This document shows, one piece after another, positions 49,577 through 51,011 of a stretch of DNA of 64,000 nt. Every line of letters starts with the position of its first letter. Position 1 is the first letter of the stretch. The DNA is from Stenotrophomonas maltophilia R551-3 (lineage in GTDB: Bacteria > Pseudomonadota > Gammaproteobacteria > Xanthomonadales > Xanthomonadaceae), in NCBI RefSeq assembly GCF_000020665.1, contig NC_011071.1, positions 1,788,501 to 1,852,500 on the forward strand, written 5' to 3'. The notes below the pieces were generated by a model that was given only the letters and a program-made list of their open reading frames with translations, did no database searches and was not told the origin of the DNA. Both the position numbers and the translations under genes were made by a program.

Positions 49577-49727
49577 CGCCCGCCGGGCGCGGCCCGGCGC
49601 TACCGGGGCGTGTTCCCGCCGGGCGCGGTGTTCGTGGGGCGCGCAGGATGCCGGTAGCGCGGGGACATGCCCCGCGAGCGCGCAGCGCGGCGCTTCTGGT
49701 TTTCCGCCGGGCATGGCCCGGCGCTAC
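49577..49727. repeat. GTAG REP cluster downstream of uup
   Basis: A REP arm ending in CTAC (49580-49603) and an inverted pair GTAGCGCGGGGAC (49653) to CTAC (49724-49727). The next palindrome, GGCCGAGCGCAGGCTCGGCTCT (split over 49736-49757), is the one interrupted by the IS110 element. Confidence 0.8.
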
Positions 49728-49790
49728 CGAAAAGCGGCCGAGCGCAGGCTCGGCTCTTGTGTCTTGGATCGTGCCCTGATCAGGCACAAT

Positions 49791-49970
49791 CCCCCGGTGA
49801 CCCGGGAGGCTCCGATGACGCTGCCTCGGCTCTTAAGCCTTCGAGCTTGCAAAGTAGATTCAGCGCGTCGGCGGCCTGACACCGCCATGGAACTTGAACG
49901 GTATCTTAGGCCCGCCATCGGGTGAGAGCCTGTACTCACAAGGGCAAGTCTGGCGGCTTCCGATCACGAT
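49791..49970 (+). ncRNA. Predicted bridge RNA of the IS110 element
   Basis: Three structures in order: a 5' hairpin CCCGG-TGA-CCGGG near 49793-49806; a target-binding loop closed by GACGCTG (49817-49823) and CAGCG-CG-TC (49861-49869); a donor-binding loop closed by CCGCCA..ACTTG (49882-49896) and CAAGT.TGGCGG (49945-49956). The target loop has CTCGGCTCT (49825-49833), identical to the left flank plus core (49749-49757), an AAGC/GCTT apical hairpin, and GTAG (49854-49857), complementary to core plus right flank CTAC (50980-50983). The donor loop has both end guides. Exact RNA ends are estimates. Confidence 0.8.
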
Positions 49971-49995
49971 CGTAAGTTCAAGCTGGAGCGAAATC

Positions 49996-50961
49996 ATGCA
50001 ATTTATCGGCATCGACGCAGCCAAGGCGACTTTTGACATCGCCCTGCCTCTATCTCACGGCAAGTATCGAACCAAGGCCAAACTCCCCAATACGCCAAAG
50101 GGTTTTGATGAGCTTCTGGCCTGGCGCGCCAAACATGCGCCGAACGCGGCGGTAGGTATGGAGGCTACAGGCATCTATCACGAGGCCTTGGCTCAAGCAC
50201 TGGTGGAAGCGGGGGTAGTGGTTCATGTGGCCAATCCCGCCCGAGTAAAGGCGTTTGGGCAGGCGGAGGGGATGCGGACCAAGACTGACCGCAGCGACGC
50301 CAAGCTGATTGCCCGGTTTTTTGAGGCACAACGCTCGGAAAAGCTGTATCCCTACGTTCCACCGACGCCCTCGGAGGTGAAGCTGCGCGCCTTGGTACGG
50401 CGTCGAGATGACCTCCAGGAAATGCTGCAGATGGAGCACAACCGCCTGGACGTTGCCGATATCTCGGTCCAGCAAGGGATCAAGGATGTGATCCGGACGT
50501 TGGAAGAGCAGATCAAGCAGGTCCAGAAGGCGATTGAGGACCATATCGATAACGATCCGGACCTGCGCCGGCGTCATCAACTGCTTACCAGCATCCCCGG
50601 TGTAGGCAACACCAGCAGTGCCCAGCTGTTGGCCATGCTGGGGGATCTAAGCAAATACAGCGACGTGCGCCAGGTGGTTGCCCACGCGGGCCTGAATCCG
50701 GCCCAGCGTCAATCAGGAAACTACGAAGGCAAATGCCGGATATCACGCGTCGGCGACGCCAATTTCCGCAAAAAGCTGTACATGCCGGCGCTGACCGGGA
50801 AGACCCACAACCCCACACTGAAGTCCTTTGCAGACCGGCTCAGCGCGAAAGGCAAGCCCTTCAAGGTCGTCATGTGTGCAGTGATGCGCAAGCTCATCCA
50901 TCTGATTTGGGGCGTACTGAGAAGTGGCCGACCCTTTGAGCCTGACGTCGCCCTTGCCTAG
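49996..50961 (+). CDS. IS110-family transposase (DEDD recombinase)
   Basis: A 321-residue RNA-guided recombinase. The RuvC-like DEDD domain has D7 (FIGIDAAKATFD), E56 (VGMEATG), D98 and D101 (KTDRSDAKLIARF). A coiled-coil follows (about 130-185), then the Tnp domain with a helix-hairpin-helix-like SIPGVGNTSSAQLLAMLG and the catalytic Ser240 in GLNPAQRQSGNYEGK. All key residues are present, so it may be active. GGAG lies eight bases before the ATG; upstream in-frame codons are the bridge RNA region. It is not mutated or truncated. Confidence 0.95.
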   Translation: MQFIGIDAAKATFDIALPLSHGKYRTKAKLPNTPKGFDELLAWRAKHAPNAAVGMEATGIYHEALAQALVEAGVVVHVANPARVKAFGQAEGMRTKTDRSDAKLIARFFEAQRSEKLYPYVPPTPSEVKLRALVRRRDDLQEMLQMEHNRLDVADISVQQGIKDVIRTLEEQIKQVQKAIEDHIDNDPDLRRRHQLLTSIPGVGNTSSAQLLAMLGDLSKYSDVRQVVAHAGLNPAQRQSGNYEGKCRISRVGDANFRKKLYMPALTGKTHNPTLKSFADRLSAKGKPFKVVMCAVMRKLIHLIWGVLRSGRPFEPDVALA

Positions 50962-51011
50962 GCGAGGGCGACACGGTATCTACAGATGCGAGGGCGTCAC
51001 GGCGCCCGATC

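Follow-up and report, generated by a model that had tools for sequence, protein, structure and literature searches.

A probably RNA-guided IS110-group insertion sequence at REP palindromes of Stenotrophomonas maltophilia

How does an insertion sequence come to lie, in copy after copy, at the same point of one repeated palindrome? The question is raised by an element in a 64,000-nucleotide stretch of the Stenotrophomonas maltophilia R551-3 genome (the window, whose positions are used throughout; all features described are on the forward strand), for which a sequence-only reading had proposed an IS110-type transposon with a legible bridge RNA. We conclude, with a probability of about 0.94, that window positions 49756-50981 are a complete, autonomous IS110-group insertion sequence of the IS621 type, the RNA guidance being proposed by analogy with IS621.

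The element, its recombinase and its insertion sites

The element (49756..50981) is 1,226 bp long, counting one CT core per end. Its left end (49756..49995) starts with the left CT core (49756..49757) and is a non-coding leader that encodes the predicted bridge RNA; it measures 240 nt and not the 180 nt first given for it. The transposase gene (49996..50961) follows, and then a right end of 20 nt (50962..50981) made up of the left-donor sequence and the CT core (50980-50981). The left end is the longer of the two, as in the IS110 group. The AC directly outside (50982..50983) is the rest of the CTAC (GTAG) tag of a repetitive palindrome (REP) that the element interrupts. Seven full-length copies are present in the host genome (one contig, 4.57 Mb), of which five, including the window copy, are identical and two carry 2 and 5 substitutions. 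The flanks differ among the five letter-identical copies. The same genome holds an eighth IS110-family transposase match of a different type (L125, G000:C1:563379-563630; 70.4 bits, 322-aa open frame). Similar DNA was not found in the plasmid collection searched.

The 321-aa product has both the DEDD (RuvC-like) domain and the Transposase_20 domain (PF01548, 99.6 bits, and PF02371, 82.6 bits, each above cut-off), and matches the solved structures of IS621 (8wt6, E 3.9e-69) and ISCro4 (9t56, E 3.4e-68), which bears out its assignment to the IS110 group. The five catalytic residues named in the sequence-only reading, D7, E56, D98, D101 and S240, are all present and align with D11, E60, D102, D105 and S241 of IS621, where mutating any one of them abolished recombination (PMC11208158). 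Membership of the IS1111 group, which has subterminal inverted repeats of 7-17 bp and an RNA in the right end, was considered and rejected: exact inverted matches between the terminal 40 nt extend to 5 nt at most, a length that 3,333 of 5,000 shuffles also reach, and the right end is only 20 nt long.

The joined flanks of all seven own copies read GGCTCGGCT[CT]AC. This motif forms the foot of the palindrome GCCGAGC..GCTCGGC, after which comes CTAC, a GTAG tag when read on the other strand. At the window site, the portion of the palindrome that remains to the left of the insertion (GCCGAGC...GCTCGGCT) occupies 49737..49755, and the left target is formed by its final 7 nt, CTCGGCT. The host genome has 139 intact sites of the form CTCGGCTCTAC (77 forward, 62 reverse) compared with 1 for the reversed pattern. 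The palindrome presumably belongs to a named Stenotrophomonas REP family. A GTAG tag is a feature of GTAG-type REP families (PMC3733652). In a sister genome (G090) there are six copies with about 95% DNA identity and unchanged guide strings, all six at the same motif. More GC-rich palindromic repeats (GCCGGGC..GCCCGGCGCTACC type; 49581-49730) fill the intergenic gap left of the window element, which therefore sits in a repeat cluster; the content of this gap varies among relatives.

Alleles without the insertion define the ends. With the joined flanks of the window site, 82 of 91 genus genomes gave some match, in most cases to one side only; 30 loci were taken and the eight that reach the junction were aligned. 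One of them (L142, genome G035) has an uninterrupted REP, AGGCTCGGCTCTACAG, in which the CT core is single, and in five others (L141, L143, L144, L145 and L166) the REP is absent, L141 having a different palindrome there. At the site of the second copy none of 29 relatives has the insertion and 19 have an intact GGCTCGGCTCTAC; they include the sister genome, which shows an intact GGCTCGGCTCTAC and 98% identity over 259 of 260 query bases. At the third copy's site the motif is intact near the same place in three of the five relatives examined (L245, L247 and L261; 29 fetched), and in L247 and L261 another palindrome lies between the motif and the anchor. The empty sites carry a single CT, as expected of insertion at a CT core with no added bases, and the ends are therefore 49756 and 50981. 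These are the ends originally proposed; they agree with all seven own copies, and the empty alleles of relatives, where different ends would have come to light, agree with them too.

Guides and fold of the leader

Four strings in the leader match the ends of the element and its target. The left target guide CTCGGCTCT (49825..49833) is identical to 49749-49757, which spans the left flank and core, and the right target guide GTAG (49854..49857) is the complement of CTAC at 50980-50983. The left donor guide ACGGTATCT (49898..49906) is identical to the right end (50973-50981), and the right donor guide CACAAG (49937..49942) is the complement of CTTGTG at the left end (49756-49761). All four matches are exact and stand at the letters where they had been read. 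Each occurs a single time in the leader, the target-loop pair ahead of the donor-loop pair. The likeness to IS621 that had been drawn from them, with target- and donor-binding loops and a CT core, is a full one, since the arrangement equals that described in PMC11208160.

Among 200,000 shuffles of the leader, the left-target 9-mer arose 271 times, the left-donor 9-mer 153 times, CACAAG 9,432 times and GTAG 116,864 times, and no shuffle held all four strings in order. Because of these frequencies, the signal is carried by the two 9-mers, and none of it by GTAG alone.

Beyond CTAC the right target does not match the guide, as the sequence-only reading had remarked. The mismatch is real and is to be expected, because the host repeat ends at its CTAC tag and the right target guide of IS621 is also 4 nt long, its natural target ATCAGGCCTAC ending in CTAC (PMC11208160). 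The guide predicts a T after CTAC, where an A stands in 13 of 13 own and sister copies; as unoccupied sites mostly have A too (27 of 30, the first 30 of the 139), this base reflects the background of the repeat. With the A background and the 4-nt right guide of IS621, the mismatch is not taken as a sign of a wrong target.

A consensus fold of 21 related leaders predicts a 5′ stem-loop (49766..49793), a target-binding stem with an internal loop (49807..49875), whose outer-stem pairs are kept in 12 to 20 of the 21 leaders (a count made without a shuffle control), and a donor-binding stem with an internal loop (49881..49958) that shows compensatory changes. The guides coincide with the two internal loops: on the 5′ side of each lies the left guide and on the 3′ side the right one, which is also the published layout of IS621 (PMC11208160). 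Folded alone, the window leader is weakly better than its shuffles (z -1.49; 16 of 200 as good), so that single-sequence folding would not by itself establish the RNA. The folding check thus gave a divided result: the two internal-loop stems claimed for the leader are conserved among relatives, in two alignments of 21 sequences each, and the fold of the leader by itself is weak.

The first alignment gives 30 consensus pairs, 19 of them with two-sided compensatory changes, and 97.2% of its cells are paired. Column shuffling lowers this to 86.9%, and none of the 500 shuffles came as high. In slid registers 18.8 to 44.0% of cells are paired, a comparison that favours the actual structure because it was derived from the same alignment. 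One of five fold measures, the number of further standard pair types, does not exceed the shuffles (37 versus 36.8; 288 of 500 as high). What is largely missing from this first consensus is the target-binding stem, which appears in the second 21-leader alignment. A scan of the whole window against Rfam at the gathering threshold returned no matching bridge-RNA family, and at a loose threshold the element gave one sub-threshold match, M23, on the opposite strand at 49701-49740, outside the element. In one relative (L008 1243-1457, S. cyclobalanopsidis NZ_VYKI01000008.1) a tandem duplication of 15 nt in the target-binding loop gives a second copy of 8 of the 9 left-guide bases (CTCGGCTCTTAAGCCTTCGGCTCTTAAGCCTTCG).

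Guide–target agreement in relatives

If the leader encodes guides, they should change together with the flanks of related insertions. Relatives were drawn from a scan of named genomes (the best 80 of 180) and from samples of the genus, family and class, in which 3 of 91, 12 of 395 and 17 of 369 genomes had a match (up to 30 loci each). This gave 138 loci for comparison, 93 of them with a recognisable left end. Thirteen rows were left out, namely 12 further copies from two genomes already represented (by L130 and the window element) and L128, which duplicates L008; the remaining 80 rows contain 41 distinct left guides. L018 was dropped for want of a flank, and the first row for each guide was kept regardless of its match.

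Across the 41 distinct guides, the left guide agrees with its own flank at a mean of 5.76 of 7 non-core bases, compared with 2.60 when flanks are shuffled, and none of 20,000 flank shuffles came as high (maximum 3.49). The match is 7/7 for 22 guides and 6/7 for nine, of which seven are completed by a G:T-type wobble. The other 10 fit poorly (5/7 or fewer), among them L034, where the alignment seems to be out of register, the distant relatives L070 and L072, and L083 (1266-1689, S. daejeonensis NZ_LDJP01000072.1), a fairly close relative (76% protein identity over 63 residues) whose guide fits the flank only if shifted by one base. L083 has a similar donor loop, a different target loop and an insertion point beside another palindrome (GTGCGGGGCAAGCCCCGCAC). 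Poor fits also occur among the rows whose guide had already been counted, on the left in L015, L031, L035, L042 and L206 and on the right in L030 and L031.

The right guide also covaries with its target. It agrees at position 3 in 29 of 30 loci (22.1 with shuffling) and at position 4 in 28 of 30 (16.9). Since agreement at positions 5 (19/30 versus 10.0) and 6 (14/29 versus 6.9) is above the shuffles as well, some relatives seem to use a right guide longer than 4 nt, which the window element does not do; position 7 is not above the shuffles (10/29 versus 8.1). Where the right target departs from CTAC, guide and target change together, as in CTAG (L027 and L029), CTGA (L203, L204 and L211), CTCT (L200) and CTAT (L179), the exceptions being L013, L032 and L181 and, among uncounted rows, L030 and L031. 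In the distant relatives L200, L203 and L204 the right guide matches the right target over 7-8 nt (CTCTCCC, CTGACCCC and CTGACCC) and not just over 4. A search for an inverted arm at the left target of these three loci found none, which places their longer right guides outside REP-like sites.

Covariation of this kind bears directly on the possibility that the transposase itself recognises the REP hairpin or its tag, and that the leader is a folded 5′ UTR whose matches stem from shared ancestry or chance. Protein recognition would account for the fact that all seven own insertions lie in one palindrome, and for the inverted arm of the left target that is found in the left flank of 23 of the 41 distinct-guide loci (4.7 expected from the arms of other loci). 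Yet the left guides vary from relative to relative and for the most part track their own flanks, several well-matched targets have no such arm (L023, L027, L029, L203 and L208), and changes in the right guide, such as CTAG and CTGA, mostly have their counterpart in the target. We regard recognition by the protein as very improbable. Coincidence, with the element reaching REPs by some other route, is a scarcely credible reading: GTAG does arise in over half of the shuffled leaders, but the complete ordered set of four strings arises in none, and guide–target covariation contradicts it.

It is unlikely, too, that the element was formerly RNA-guided and is now immobile in this strain. A transposase at E <= 1e-80 occurs in only 3 of the 91 genus genomes, its own included, which would suit an element that no longer moves. 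Against this, the reading frame and catalytic residues are intact, and five letter-identical copies out of seven, in differing flanks, point to recent spread, a pattern that gene conversion could also give. The reading that we favour, an element that is probably complete and probably guided by its own RNA, is the one first proposed from the letters, and the intact gene, the ends, the guides and the covariation all support it.

Proposed mechanism, known systems and significance

By analogy with IS621, the recombinase would excise the element as a circle that joins 50981 to 49756, with a junction reading ACGGTATCTTGTG. The bridge RNA would be transcribed from the leader, its donor loop pairing with the circle junction. 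The target loop would pair with the CTCGGCT-CT-AC that forms the foot of a GTAG-tagged REP. Strand exchange next to the CT core, via Ser240, would involve the top strand and then the bottom strand, and the element would end up between the stem of the REP and its tag, the CT core alone being shared by the two ends. In IS621 a sigma70-like promoter forms at the circle junction (PMC11208158). The junction of the window element is spanned by a promoter-like TTGCCT-17-TATCTT. This agrees with IS621, from which the window element differs in that the candidate is weak, with 8 of 12 consensus bases (counted without a shuffle control).

The closest parallel is IS621 of Escherichia coli, also of the IS110 group, with which the window element shares a DEDD/Ser recombinase, a bridge RNA in the left end, a CT core, 9-nt left and 4-nt right target guides and a CTAC right target in REP elements (PMC11208160). 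The two differ in the left guide, which is CTCGGCT here, fitted to this host's REP stem, and ATCGGGC in IS621. Other IS110-family elements lie in host REPs in all copies reported, namely ISPpu9 (7/7), ISPpu10 (7/7), ISPa11 (6/6) and ISRm19 (4/4) (PMC1525189); unlike the window element, these have other hosts and other REPs, and ISPa11 is treated elsewhere as an IS1111-family element with its RNA downstream of the gene (PMC11187229). Three named IS110-family elements of S. maltophilia, ISStma4, ISStma6 and ISStma7, are listed in PMC13296070; they belong to the same family and probably the same host genus, and the window element may be one of them.

It has long been established that IS621, ISPpu9/10 and other IS110 elements insert into REPs (PMC1525189); the description of bridge or seeker RNAs dates from 2024 (PMC11208160, PMC11187229). 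It is well supported that the window element is a natural example of the system described then, and no new kind of system. Within the open-licence PMC literature we recognised no paper describing this element or its bridge RNA. Stenotrophomonas is unnamed in the main text of PMC11208160 and PMC11187229, and the thousands of predicted bridge RNAs in the supplementary material may include this one.

The relatives suggest a wider pattern. Among the 77 loci for which both ends were located, repeated copies included, 66 have CTAC as their right target, and in 29 of the 41 distinct-guide loci the right guide specifies CTAC. We tentatively suggest, at a little short of even odds, that the bridge RNA of this IS110 branch acts as a repeat-tracking device, in which the right guide mostly stays GTAG, a tag common to many GTAG-type REP families, and the left guide is adjusted to whatever stem the host's own repeat has, so that guide evolution would follow REP evolution lineage by lineage. 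This is a lead and no test, because the loci are related by descent and host repeats were counted in the window's genome alone. If it is true, repeat tracking leaves every element with abundant intergenic places to land.

Seven near-identical copies, 139 exact target sites and many empty-site alleles make this an unusually legible natural bridge-RNA element. Together with relatives that have different target loops, they recommend it as a candidate for a further bridge recombinase and as a system in which to study how guides are reprogrammed in nature, and the element adds to the case for REP repeats as landing sites of RNA-guided elements.
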